From Egicoccus halophilus (GTDB lineage Bacteria; Actinomycetota; Nitriliruptoria; Nitriliruptorales; Nitriliruptoraceae): a stretch of DNA of 64,000 bases. The DNA lies in the NCBI RefSeq assembly GCF_004300825.1, contig NZ_CP036250.1, forward strand, positions 1,984,001 through 2,048,000, written 5' to 3'. Shown piece by piece: positions 15,520 to 20,215 of the stretch; within the stretch, counting starts at the first letter, position 1; the number at the start of each line of letters is the position of its first letter. The notes under the pieces are model-generated. The model was not told where the DNA came from. It ran no database searches and saw nothing but the letters and a program-made list of their open reading frames with translations. A program made the position numbers and the translations under genes.

Positions 15520-16134
15520 GTGTCTGCTGACCCGGGCGTGCCCGCGCGCACGACGCGGGGCGAGCGCACCGCCGCCCGGCTGCGCGCGGCTGCGCGCGCC
15601 GTGTTCGCGGACCGCGGCTACGCCGCCGCCCGCGTGGAGGACGTCGTCGCCGAGGCCGGGGTGAGCCACGGCACGTTCTACACCTACTTCGAGAACAAGG
15701 CCGGTGCCCTCGACGCCCTCATCGACGAGACGGCCGGCCAGCTGCAGGCGGTGGTCGACGAGCCCTGGGAGGGCACGGACGTCCTGACCACGATCGCGGC
15801 CGTCATCGACCGCTTCGTCGACGTGTTCTCGCAACACGGCGACGTCGTCCGCACCTGGCTGGAGGCCAGTGCGCACGACCAGCACTTCCGCGACCGCCTC
15901 CGCGAGGTGCGCACCGGGTACGTCGAACGGGTGGCGCAGAACCTCGGTCCGGCGCTCGACAGCACGCCCCACGACCCGCAGGTGGCCGCGGCGGCGCTCG
16001 TGGCGATGGTCGAGGGGTACGCGACGCAGGGCATGACCAGCGACGACGAGGAGCAGCGCGCCTCGGTCGTGCGCACGCTGGCGTCGATCTGGTTCGGTGG
16101 ACTGCTGCGGCTCATGGACCCGTCCACCTCGTAG
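15520..16134 (+). CDS. TetR/AcrR family transcriptional regulator
   Basis: This is a 204-residue protein from GTG 15520, preceded by GAGGAGG at about 15507-15513. The N-terminal helix-turn-helix region (GERTAARLRAAARAVFADRGYAAARVEDVVAEAGVSHGTFYTYF, residues about 13-56) is typical TetR. The C-terminal ligand/dimerisation domain ends in LASIWFGGLLRLMD, as in TetR_C domains of the fatty-acid/polyketide-type regulators. The ligand is unknown. It is divergent from the moxR operon and followed by a hairpin terminator. Confidence 0.85.
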   Translation: MSADPGVPARTTRGERTAARLRAAARAVFADRGYAAARVEDVVAEAGVSHGTFYTYFENKAGALDALIDETAGQLQAVVDEPWEGTDVLTTIAAVIDRFVDVFSQHGDVVRTWLEASAHDQHFRDRLREVRTGYVERVAQNLGPALDSTPHDPQVAAAALVAMVEGYATQGMTSDDEEQRASVVRTLASIWFGGLLRLMDPSTS

Positions 16135-16152
16135 GCACCGTCGGCAGCCGCG

Positions 16153-16195
16153 GTGGTGACCGGGCGGGCAGCGTCCGGACCGCCCCGGCCACCAC
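16153..16195 (+). terminator. Imperfect hairpin after the tetR gene
   Basis: GTGGTG (16153-16158) pairs with CACCAC (16190-16195), and the inner CCGGGCGG region pairs with CCGCCCCGG with one bulge and one mismatch. It lies 19 nt after the stop, with a short TTCCC tail. The remainder of 16196-16350 holds no gene. Confidence 0.45.
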
Positions 16196-16351
16196 TTCCC
16201 ACCACCGCGCCCACGCCCGCCGTACCGGGGACGGACCGCCGGCGGTGACGCGCCGGTCCGGTCGGTCGCGCCCGCGTCCGCGCCGCAACGGCGGAGCTTG
16301 CCGCTTTTGGCGAGAACACGGAATTAGCCTGCGCTTTCGGGGGGAGGATCG

Positions 16352-16381
16352 TTGCCGATGTGGGAGGGGGTGTCGTAGAGT
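16352..16381 (+). promoter_or_regulatory. Candidate promoter of the dcw cluster (mraZ)
   Basis: TTGCCG (16352-16357) and TAGAGT (16376-16381) are separated by 18 nt and match four of six bases at each hexamer. The MraZ-type repeats lie on top of this promoter. A second TTGCCG at 16298-16303 with GAATTA 17 nt downstream is an alternative start further up. Confidence 0.45.
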
Positions 16382-16395
16382 GGTGCGAAGTGGAG
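16361..16395 (+). promoter_or_regulatory. MraZ operator: four TGG-type repeats at 10-bp spacing
   Basis: TGGGA (16361), TGTCG (16371), TGGTG (16381) and TGGAG (16391) are spaced exactly 10 bp apart, each preceded by G. Direct TGGGN repeats separated by 5 bp are the known binding sites of the ring-shaped MraZ repressor in Escherichia coli. The array overlaps the promoter and ends about 50 nt before the mraZ start. Confidence 0.7.
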
Positions 16396-16444
16396 GGCGT
16401 TCCCGTCAGGGGGAGCACCCGGTACCCGACAGAGCAGGTCGCGG

Positions 16445-16867
16445 TTGTTCCTCGGAGAGCACCAGCACACGCTGGACGCCAAGGGGCGCGTGATCCTGCC
16501 TGCACGCTTCCGCGAGCGGCTGTCCGGTGGCCTGGTGTTCGCCCCCTCCCAGGACCGCTGCATCGACGTCTACCCCGCCACCGCGTTCGAACGCCGGGTC
16601 GAGGAACTCCGGGCGGTACCGCGCGAGGACCAGCGCGCGCGGGCCTACCTGCGCGTGTTCCTCGCCGGCGCCCATCAGGAGACCCCCGACGCCCAGGGGC
16701 GCGTGACCATCCCGCCGCGGCTGCGTGCCTACGCGGGGCTCGACAAGGACCTCACCGTCAACGGTGCGGACGAGAAGGTCGAGATCTGGGACCGCAGCAC
16801 CTGGGAGCAGTACCGCGACGCCGCCGAGGAGGCCTTCGCCAACCTCGACGCCCCGTTCACCGTCTGA
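16445..16867 (+). CDS. mraZ: Transcriptional regulator MraZ
   Basis: This is a 140-residue protein with a TTG start at 16445, chosen because MFLGEHQHTLDAKGRVILPARFRERL is the family N-terminus. It contains two SpoVT-AbrB half-domains, each with a DAKGR/DAQGR motif (about residues 11-15 and 81-85), that build a double-psi barrel forming a ring-shaped oligomer. MraZ represses its own dcw operon by binding TGG-type direct repeats; four such repeats lie just upstream. It is the first gene of the cluster and ends 1 nt before the rsmH ATG. Confidence 0.95.
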   Translation: MFLGEHQHTLDAKGRVILPARFRERLSGGLVFAPSQDRCIDVYPATAFERRVEELRAVPREDQRARAYLRVFLAGAHQETPDAQGRVTIPPRLRAYAGLDKDLTVNGADEKVEIWDRSTWEQYRDAAEEAFANLDAPFTV

Positions 16868-16868
16868 C

Positions 16869-17870
16869 ATGGCGAGCACCATGACCCTGCCCGAGCAGCA
16901 CGGCGCCCCCGGTTCCTCCGGGCCGCCGCACGTCCCGGTCCTGCTGGACCGGGTCGTCGCGCTGTTCGCCGACGCACCCGAGGGGGTGTACCTGGACGGC
17001 ACGCTCGGGGCGGCGGGACACGCGGCGGCCGTGCTCGAGGCCCGGGCGCGGCGCCACGGCCGTGCGTCCCTGGTCGGCCTCGACCGCGACCCGCACGCGC
17101 TGGCGCTGGCCGAGACCCGCCTGGCGCGCGTCGGTGACGCGGTGGAGACCACCCTGGTGCGCACCCGGTTCGACGCGCTCGGCGAGGTCCTCGACGGGCT
17201 CGGGATCGAGCGGGTCGCCGGGATCTTCCTCGACCTGGGCATCTCGTCGATGCACGTCGACGAGGCCGCCCGGGGGTTCAGCTACCGCCAGGACGGTCCG
17301 CTCGACATGCGCATGGACCCGGACCTGCCGCGCTCGGCGGCCGATCTGGTCAACCAGCTCGAGCCACGGGAGCTGGCCCGCATCCTGCGCCGGTTCGGGG
17401 ACGAACGGTTCGCGGACCGCATCGCACGGGCCGTCGTGGCCGCACGACCGCTGACACGCACGACCGAGCTGGCCGAGGTCGTGCGCAACGCCATCCCGGC
17501 GGCTGCCCGCCGGACCGGTGGGCACCCGGCAACCCGCACCTTCCAGGCCCTGCGCATCGCCGTGAACGGCGAGCTCGAGGCCCTCGAGCAGGTCCTGCCG
17601 GCCGCCCTCGAGCGGCTCGCCACGGGCGGTGTCCTGGCGGTCCTGAGCTACCACTCCCTGGAGGACCGGCCGGTCAAGCGGGCGTTCGCCGCCGCGGCGA
17701 CCGGCTGTGTCTGTCCGCCGAACCTGCCGGTGTGCGCCTGCGGCCGCACGCCACTGGTCGAGCACGTCATCCGCAAGCCCGAGCGGCCCGACGCCGACGA
17801 GGTCGCCGTCAACCCCCGTGCCACCGCGGCCCGCCTGCGTGCGGTCCGCCGCCTGGAGTCCCACCCGTGA
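16869..17870 (+). CDS. rsmH: 16S rRNA (cytosine(1402)-N(4))-methyltransferase RsmH (MraW)
   Basis: This is a 333-residue protein. HVPVLLDRVV opens the domain, the SAM-binding motif is VYLDGTLGAAGHA with GLDRDPHAL, and GIFLDLGISSMHVDEAARGFSYRQDGPLDMRMD is the family hallmark. It ends with LSYHSLEDRPVKRAF and a Cys-rich segment. The enzyme methylates N4 of C1402 in 16S rRNA. Start ATG 16869 lies directly after mraZ; an in-frame ATG at 16881 is possible. Its TGA overlaps the ftsL GTG (GTGA). Confidence 0.95.
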   Translation: MASTMTLPEQHGAPGSSGPPHVPVLLDRVVALFADAPEGVYLDGTLGAAGHAAAVLEARARRHGRASLVGLDRDPHALALAETRLARVGDAVETTLVRTRFDALGEVLDGLGIERVAGIFLDLGISSMHVDEAARGFSYRQDGPLDMRMDPDLPRSAADLVNQLEPRELARILRRFGDERFADRIARAVVAARPLTRTTELAEVVRNAIPAAARRTGGHPATRTFQALRIAVNGELEALEQVLPAALERLATGGVLAVLSYHSLEDRPVKRAFAAAATGCVCPPNLPVCACGRTPLVEHVIRKPERPDADEVAVNPRATAARLRAVRRLESHP

Positions 17871-18301: not shown

Positions 18302-20215
18302 ATGACCGAGCAGCCGCGTCGGCTCCGCGCCCTGGCCGCCTCCCGCGTCCAGCGGTCCGCGCGGGAGACCGGGACCCGCCGGATCCGCTGGATGCTGCTC
18401 ATCTACGGGTTGCTGTTCGCGTTGACCTTCGGTCAACTGATCAACGTCCAGGTCGTGCAGGGCCCCGACTACGCCGATCGTGGCGTTCGTCAGCGGGCGC
18501 GGATCGTCGACCTGGCGGCGACGCGCGGGCGCATCTACGACCGTGAGGGGGACGTGCTCGCGACCAGCGTGCAGTCGGCCTCGGTGTACGTCGACCCGCG
18601 CGCCTACCGGCCGGGGGAGACCCCCGACGGACAGGTCGTCCCGGCGGCCGGGGACAGCCGCGAGGTCGCCGAGGCGCTCGCGCCGCTGCTCGACCTGCGG
18701 GCCGACGACGTGCGCGACCGCCTCGAGCGCGACGCCCACTTCGTCTACCTCGGCCGTCAGCTGGACTGGGAGGTCGGCGAGCGCATCCGCGAGCTGGAGC
18801 TGCCGGGCGTCGGCGTGCTCGCCGAGCCGCAGCGGGTCTACCCGGCCGGACCGCTGGCCGGGCAGATCGTCGGGTTCACCGGCATCGACGGCGAGGGACT
18901 GCAGGGGCTCGAGGAGCAGTACGACCAGGTCCTCAGGGGCCGATCGGGGGTACTGACCTTCGATCAGGCACCGGGCGGGCTCGGGATCACCTCGGGCACC
19001 CGCGAGCTCCAGCCGTCCGAGCCGGGGACCGATCTGGTCCTGACCCTCGACCGGGACGTGCAGTACGCCGCGGAGCAGGCGGCGGCCAACGCCGTGGAGG
19101 AGCACGACGCCGCCGCCGCCAGCGTGGTCGTGCTCGACGTCGACACCTTCGAGGTGCTCGGCATGGCCTCGAGCCCCGGCTTCGACCCCAACGACCGCGG
19201 CAACAGCGACCCCGAGACGTGGCGCAACCGCGCCGTCACCGACGTGTTCGAGCCTGGATCGGTGCAGAAGGCGCTGACCGTCGCGGCGGCGCTCGAGGAA
19301 GGGCTGGTGTCGGCGACGTCCGCGAGGCCCACGAGCCGCAGCGTGCAGGCCGGAGGCCGGACCTTCCGCGACCCGCACCCGTTTCCCGGGGCGCAGTGGA
19401 CGCTCGGTGACATGGTCGAGCGCTCCAGCAACGTCGGCACCATCGAACTCGCCCAGCAGCTGGGCCCGGAGCGGCTGTACGACTACCTGCGGGAGTTCGG
19501 GTACGCGCAGCCGACCGGCGTGGGATTCCCGGGGGAGTCCAGCGGGCTGCTCATGCCGACCGAGAACTGGTGGGGGACCTCGCTGCCCACCATCTCCATC
19601 GGCCAGGGCGTGGCCGTGACGCTGATGCAGTTGGCCACCTCCTACGCCACGTTGGCCAACGACGGCGTGGCCAGGACCCCGCGCATCGTGCGCGGCACGG
19701 TCGGCGAGGACGGTCGTCTGACGCCGACGGCGTCGGGCGGCGAGCGACGCGTGGTCTCTCCCGACACCGCCGGGCAGGTCCGTTCGCTGCTCGAGCGCGC
19801 CGTGAGCGGCGAGCACGGCACGGGCGGACGGGCGGCCGTCGAGGGCTACAGCGTGGCCGGCAAGACCGGCACCGCCCGCAAGCCCAGCGTCGACGCGCGC
19901 GGCTACTCCGGCGAGTACGTCGCGACCTTCGTCGGGTTCGCACCGGTCGAGGACCCCGAGGTCGTGGTGGCCGTGATGGTCGACGAACCCGGACCGGTGT
20001 TCTACGGCGGCCTGGTCGCGGCTCCGGTCTTCAGCGAGGTCATGGCGGCCACGCTCGCCGCCCGGAGGGTCGCGCCCGACGGGGGGTCCCCGAGTCTGGA
20101 CGTGGTGATGGACGAGGCCCGGCTCGTGGCCGCGGAGACGGCCGCGCTCGAGTCCGAGGCGCTGCCCGCCGACGACCCGGGTTCACCGCCGGTCGGCGAC
20201 CCGGTGGGTGACTAG
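18302..20215 (+). CDS. ftsI: Division-specific peptidoglycan D,D-transpeptidase FtsI (class B PBP)
   Basis: This is a 637-residue protein with one N-terminal membrane segment (about 30-50), a PBP dimerisation domain, then the transpeptidase domain with SxxK as SVQK (S320-K323, in FEPGSVQK), SxN as SSN (375-377) and KTGT (521-524). The acidic, Pro-rich tail after about 600 is extra. It cross-links septal peptidoglycan together with FtsW. ATG 18302 immediately follows the ftsL stop. The gene is followed by a 232-nt gap containing a promoter-like element before murE. Confidence 0.94.
   Translation: MTEQPRRLRALAASRVQRSARETGTRRIRWMLLIYGLLFALTFGQLINVQVVQGPDYADRGVRQRARIVDLAATRGRIYDREGDVLATSVQSASVYVDPRAYRPGETPDGQVVPAAGDSREVAEALAPLLDLRADDVRDRLERDAHFVYLGRQLDWEVGERIRELELPGVGVLAEPQRVYPAGPLAGQIVGFTGIDGEGLQGLEEQYDQVLRGRSGVLTFDQAPGGLGITSGTRELQPSEPGTDLVLTLDRDVQYAAEQAAANAVEEHDAAAASVVVLDVDTFEVLGMASSPGFDPNDRGNSDPETWRNRAVTDVFEPGSVQKALTVAAALEEGLVSATSARPTSRSVQAGGRTFRDPHPFPGAQWTLGDMVERSSNVGTIELAQQLGPERLYDYLREFGYAQPTGVGFPGESSGLLMPTENWWGTSLPTISIGQGVAVTLMQLATSYATLANDGVARTPRIVRGTVGEDGRLTPTASGGERRVVSPDTAGQVRSLLERAVSGEHGTGGRAAVEGYSVAGKTGTARKPSVDARGYSGEYVATFVGFAPVEDPEVVVAVMVDEPGPVFYGGLVAAPVFSEVMAATLAARRVAPDGGSPSLDVVMDEARLVAAETAALESEALPADDPGSPPVGDPVGD

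Follow-up and report, generated by a model that had tools for sequence, protein, structure and literature searches.

A candidate distal inverted MraZ operator accompanies the phased repeats of the mraZ/dcw promoter in Egicoccus halophilus and related Actinomycetota

The MraZ-type repeats over the mraZ/dcw promoter of Egicoccus halophilus probably form the primary operator (O1) of a promoter under autoregulation, working together with an inverted two-box site further upstream that would serve as an auxiliary MraZ operator; judged from the sequence, MraZ is expected to bind the two sites, to repress the promoter and to loop the DNA between them. Both sites lie in the window, the whole stretch of 64,000 nucleotides of contig NZ_CP036250.1 that was analysed (Table 1). 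The inverted site has counterparts in most loci of the window's class, where the pairs run almost exclusively on the strand opposite to mraZ, and those nearest to O1 tend to lie at whole helical turns from it. A limited, non-exhaustive search of the open-access literature found no description of a distal MraZ operator.

The operator at the mraZ promoter

The array precedes the genome's sole mraZ, whose product scores 128.7 bits against a curated cut-off of 23, has two domains and carries the DxKGR motif; residues D11, K13, G14 and R15 are invariant in an alignment of 25 MraZ proteins that includes the Escherichia coli protein. The predicted model (pLDDT 90.9) matches the fold of the DNA-bound Mycoplasma MraZ 9sz7 with Z 19.6 (138 aligned, 1.7 A), and the high-Z matches of the fold search were MraZ entries only. 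MraZ was near-universal in a draw of genomes across the phylum (141 of 148), and none of the six genomes drawn from family f22 (G081, G144, G159, G179, G185 and G191; 7-10 Mb) gave an MraZ match. Exact GTGG triplets were also sought across the genome as signs of further MraZ targets; two matches lie elsewhere, as against three in the control, and a wider regulon was therefore rejected.

Table 1. Features at the mraZ/dcw promoter, in window positions. The term close loci denotes those 30, out of 76 distinct mraZ loci, whose MraZ identity is 70% or more.
Feature	Position	Strand	Remarks
Distal inverted two-box MraZ-type site, GTGGTGGGAAGTGG	16192-16205	-	overlapping register 16189-16202
-35 element, TTGCCG	16352-16357	+	TTG[AC]C in 29/30 close loci
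Unit 1, GTGGGAGGGG	16360-16369	+	shortly 3' of -35
Unit 2, GTGTCGTAGA	16370-16379	+	degenerate (GTGT); 3' half holds start of -10
-10 element, TAGAGT	16376-16381	+	TANNNT in 30/30 close loci
Unit 3, GTGGTGCGAA	16380-16389	+	GT overlaps end of -10 hexamer
Unit 4, GTGGAGGGCG	16390-16399	+	near the expected transcription start
TTCCCG, possible inverted TGGG-like element (TTCCC[A/G])	16400-16405		12 bp after unit 4 start
mraZ	16445-16867	+	TTG start, 140 aa, two PF02381 domains
rsmH/mraW	16869-17870	+	next dcw gene; PF01795, 1.6e-103
ftsI-type penicillin-binding protein, dcw cluster	18302-20215	+	PF00905 and PF03717

The initial annotation had read four repeats here, TGGGA at 16361, TGTCG at 16371, TGGTG at 16381 and TGGAG at 16391, and all of them are found at those positions, with the 10-bp period that it had likened to the E. 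coli array (GTGGGAAATT, GTGGGGCAAA, GTGGGAATAA). The conserved repeat unit is GTGG-N6 and begins one base earlier, placing the four units at 16360-16399. Such an array is rare: four consecutive GTGK-N6 units match once in the 3.98-Mb genome, at this array, against two matches for the backwards-pattern control, and when the 300 bp upstream were shuffled 20,000 times with dinucleotides preserved, 5 shuffles contained four TG at 10 bp of which three or more were TGG.

The promoter hexamers TTGCCG and TAGAGT are also present as annotated, with an 18-bp spacer, and the array overlaps them, unit 1 abutting the -35 element and unit 3 overlapping the -10 element; the spacer of the close loci is 17 bp in 20 loci and 18 bp in nine. 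At its own threshold a promoter scanner reported no promoter here, the hexamers scoring below that threshold, and no Rfam element was matched within 16100-16600. A conserved hairpin in the 5'-UTR was considered and rejected (z -1.53; 14 of 200 shuffles fold equally well). At the offset of the inverted TGGG-like element, CCC occurs in 24 of the 30 close loci and CCCA in 17; the element is rare elsewhere.

Boxes of the GTGG type phased at 10 bp stand upstream of nearly every mraZ examined. In the 76 distinct mraZ-upstream regions, 123 GTGG pairs at 10 bp were observed against 1.8 expected, with further spacing peaks at 20 bp (58) and 21 bp (46), and exact chains of three or four boxes occur in 48 of the 80 loci of the phylum draw. 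Among the close loci GTGG at unit 3 and GTGGAG at unit 4 are kept in 30 of 30, these two units being the anchor of the alignment, whose pattern had been adjusted to admit a locus already inspected (L049). The annotated reading, that the mraZ/dcw promoter is overlain by an operator of the MraZ type, thus agrees with GTG-core direct repeats at a 10-bp period, with their location at the promoter that precedes mraZ and the dcw cluster, and with their retention, as units 3 and 4, upstream of orthologous mraZ.

The two upstream units behave differently. Unit 2 is mostly degenerate (GTGG in 2/30 close loci, GTG in 9/30), and a GTGG for unit 1 stands at -20 in seven loci and at -21 in 14, being absent from all three congeners (L003/L072, L052 and L056). 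Conserved four-unit arrays in relatives, for which the initial annotation had proposed to look, were not found among the close loci: of these 30, the window alone has all four units in exact register, and its unit 2 reads GTGT, so that four strong boxes in exact register are not a lineage-wide feature. Its suggestion that four faces of the MraZ ring are used is accordingly possible for the window, but it is neither new nor conserved in the lineage, since units 1 and 2 vary or are absent in relatives. In L033, L035 and similar Coriobacteriia-type loci the main array starts GTGTTGCAAA, preceded by TCCCAT or GCCCAT, so that their operators are laid out otherwise than in the class of the window.

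Direct-repeat operators of this kind are known elsewhere. The accessible part of the work on Burkholderia cenocepacia describes PmraBc as four GTG-type repeats with a 10-bp period (7 nt plus a 3-nt spacer), placed like those of the window at the mraZ promoter, beside or over the transcription start; that array lies downstream of the -10 element, whereas the window's spans from -35 to about +10, and no distal inverted site figures in that part of the description (PMC7761207). In Mycoplasma genitalium, MraZ is a repressor and the operator repeat is AAAGTG[T/G] (PMC8475190). The M. genitalium protein is homologous to the window's MraZ (its two chain sequences in 9sz7 and 9r4j match with E 7.4e-15 and 7.5e-15), and PDB entry 9sz7, alongside 9r4j, is by its title a cryo-EM structure of it on a four-box promoter, a direct-repeat operator as here; the entry titles mention no distal site. 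E. coli K-12 (L125) has GTGG boxes at 10 bp as well, but three exact ones, and no distal pair within 300 bp upstream of mraZ. Since B. cenocepacia has four units, 9sz7 holds a four-box promoter and exact chains of four or five boxes occur in 32 of 64 loci drawn from the class of genome G129, the four-box array in itself is ordinary and already known. The greater interest lies in the candidate distal inverted operator.

The distal inverted pair and its distribution

The distal site of the window, which the initial annotation does not mention, is a single site in the far zone, readable in two overlapping registers, and lies 188 bp from units 3-4, centre to centre, which is 17.9 turns at 10.5 bp. 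By its sequence alone it qualifies as a second operator for MraZ. Its linker is similar to the one in the main array, (A/T)G(C/G)GAA, and across the mraZ-upstream regions the distal pairs very often read CCACTTCGCTCCAC, which is what units 3-4 of the relatives give when reverse-complemented. In the whole genome GTGGNGSGAAGTGG is found only at the distal site and at units 3-4, and the five other genome matches of the search pattern GTGGNGSGARGTGG each have GAG instead of GAA. By chance, each strand of the window would hold about 0.02 pairs in 230 nt. In each of the three congeners there are two distal pairs, 22-23 bp apart.

The pair was discovered post hoc, through a strand control in which GTGG pairs at 10 bp numbered 52 on the minus strand (CCAC-N6-CCAC), upstream of the main array, and was then followed up on new genomes. 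Pairs were counted from -290 to -60 relative to the last GTGG. The first set comprised 99 loci (L001-L099), of which two were too short, leaving 97 usable and 76 distinct; one of these lacked two exact boxes and was dropped, and the remaining 75 consist of 57 loci of the window's class (all rows except L023-L040 and L042) and 18 others. A minus-strand pair is present in 52 of the 57 class loci, against two with a plus-strand pair, and in none of the 18 loci outside the class. All four fresh class genomes have it as well, bringing the class to 56/61 on the minus and 2/61 on the plus strand, although related genomes in this and the other distal-pair counts are not independent. Of the five class loci without an exact pair, one is cut by a contig end and one carries a pair that has a single mismatch; 24 of the 61 carry near-zone and far-zone pairs together.

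Beyond the class the distribution becomes uneven. Two families are rich in the pair, f38 (28/30 minus, 1/30 plus) and f28 (27/30 minus, 0/30 plus; one of its 31 genomes, G236, gave no locus); both were picked because members showed the pair, and therefore only their other members test it. The draw from the class of G129 yielded MraZ in 64 of 69 genomes, and the 64 loci, less five without two exact boxes and one that was short, left 58, nine of them seen before (seven from f28 and f38); here the pair occurs on the minus strand in 23 and on the plus strand in one, patchily by family. The phylum draw contributed 80 upstream regions; of its other genomes with MraZ, 17 had been part of the first set and 44 were left out. 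In this draw 67 loci, E. coli included, had a usable array and sufficient length; nine carry minus-strand and six plus-strand pairs, and the distal trait is therefore not general in the phylum. Many actinobacterial families are without it, and with its absence from 5/61 class loci this means that the pair is not needed for MraZ regulation generally. In the three main groups no minus-strand pair was counted beyond -350 or nearer than about -85.

Helical spacing and the competing explanations

The near-zone pairs (-140 to -60) cluster at -85, -95, -105, -115, -126 and -137. Across 121 loci, one lies at -85, 25 at -93 to -96, 25 at -103 to -107, 10 at -113 to -116, two at -119 (off phase), four at -126/-127 and one at -137. 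The 18 distinct near-zone positions give R 0.68 at 10.5 bp, which none of 100,000 random sets reached, and the seven cluster centres give R 0.75, a value reached by 10 of 100,000; for the 31 distinct nearest distances of the class, R is 0.54 at 10.5 bp, again a value that no random draw reached (0/20,000). The phasing of the far sites is mixed: R is 0.58 in the class and 0.59 in f38, with no phasing among the far sites of f28 (R 0.29) or in the 12 class-draw loci whose sites are all far (R 0.13).

This unevenness favours the explanation that O1 alone matters, its two strong and two weak boxes occluding the promoter while distal pairs only concentrate MraZ and form no loop. The invariance of units 3 and 4 and their overlap with the promoter would suffice for repression. 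Mere titration, however, leads one to expect neither the whole-turn distances of the near zone nor the strict strand bias, and we hold this explanation to be unlikely.

Every pair counted as distal runs opposite to mraZ, as would an operator that belongs to an antisense or divergent promoter. A -10-like TANN precedes the box in 0 of 193 distal pairs as against 96 of 121 main arrays, which makes such a promoter very improbable; moreover, the TetR-type gene upstream of mraZ in the window is co-directional with mraZ and ends at 16134.

It is similarly improbable, and highly so, that the pair serves a different protein whose site is similar, such as an architectural protein or an activator. A second conserved element, TGACC[TA]GC, does lie between the two sites in 17 of the 57 class loci, and other factors therefore probably act here; the distal sequence, however, is the MraZ box pair including its linker, with GTGGNGSGAAGTGG confined to two places in the genome. 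The TGACC[TA]GC element, which is possibly a site for an activator or a bending protein, stands upstream of the promoter and, counted from the last GTGG, at -64/-65, -76, -84 to -87 and -96, in steps of about 10.5 bp (L052, L061, L094 and others), and the window keeps only its CCTGCG part, at 16328-16333. Finally, chance or the compositional bias of G-rich DNA is scarcely credible, for single GTGG words are common in a GC-rich genome but shuffles, strand controls and other-spacing controls contradict it and fresh genomes behave alike.

Bridging by the MraZ ring

Under the favoured reading, in which MraZ bridges O1 and the distal site, ring subunits of MraZ would touch the GTGG boxes of O1 once per helical turn across the -35 and -10 elements, and MraZ bound there would block RNA polymerase; that it binds O1 and represses its own operon here is what established MraZ biology leads one to expect. 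Units 3 and 4 would form the core of O1, units 1 and 2 being weak or lineage-specific. In many actinobacteria one or two inverted pairs, about 85-290 bp from O1 and the nearer ones at whole turns, would then offer further binding sites, and one ring, or two dyad-related rings, could join O1 to the distal site while the DNA between them loops out. The likely role of the distal site would be cooperative repression by such bridging.

Both the phase and the inversion would reflect bridging, a dyad (two rings, or one ring with two antiparallel arcs) being its natural geometry. Same-face distances are common in the relatives, which suggests that ring-shaped MraZ may tie this DNA into a loop. The broader proposition that, widely in Actinomycetota, one or more octameric rings loop the promoter boxes together with one or two inverted operators at whole turns is quite possible, though tentative.

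Looping through auxiliary operators at helically phased distances is familiar from LacI, GalR, AraC and DeoR. These looped repressors are dimers or tetramers (an octamer in DeoR) with palindromic half-sites, whereas MraZ is a ring that reads direct repeats, and its distal array is inverted.

MraZ is among the most widespread bacterial regulators, and it is an eight-membered ring, yet its known operators take up three or four subunits. If true, looping in much of the Actinomycetota would give the otherwise idle ring faces a purpose, and an inverted, helically phased second operator across many actinobacterial mraZ genes would offer a possible reason for the eight-membered ring. The idea of bridging or looping is testable with short DNA constructs. 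Additionally, actinobacterial dcw promoters trimmed to the last 100 bp could lose part of their control.
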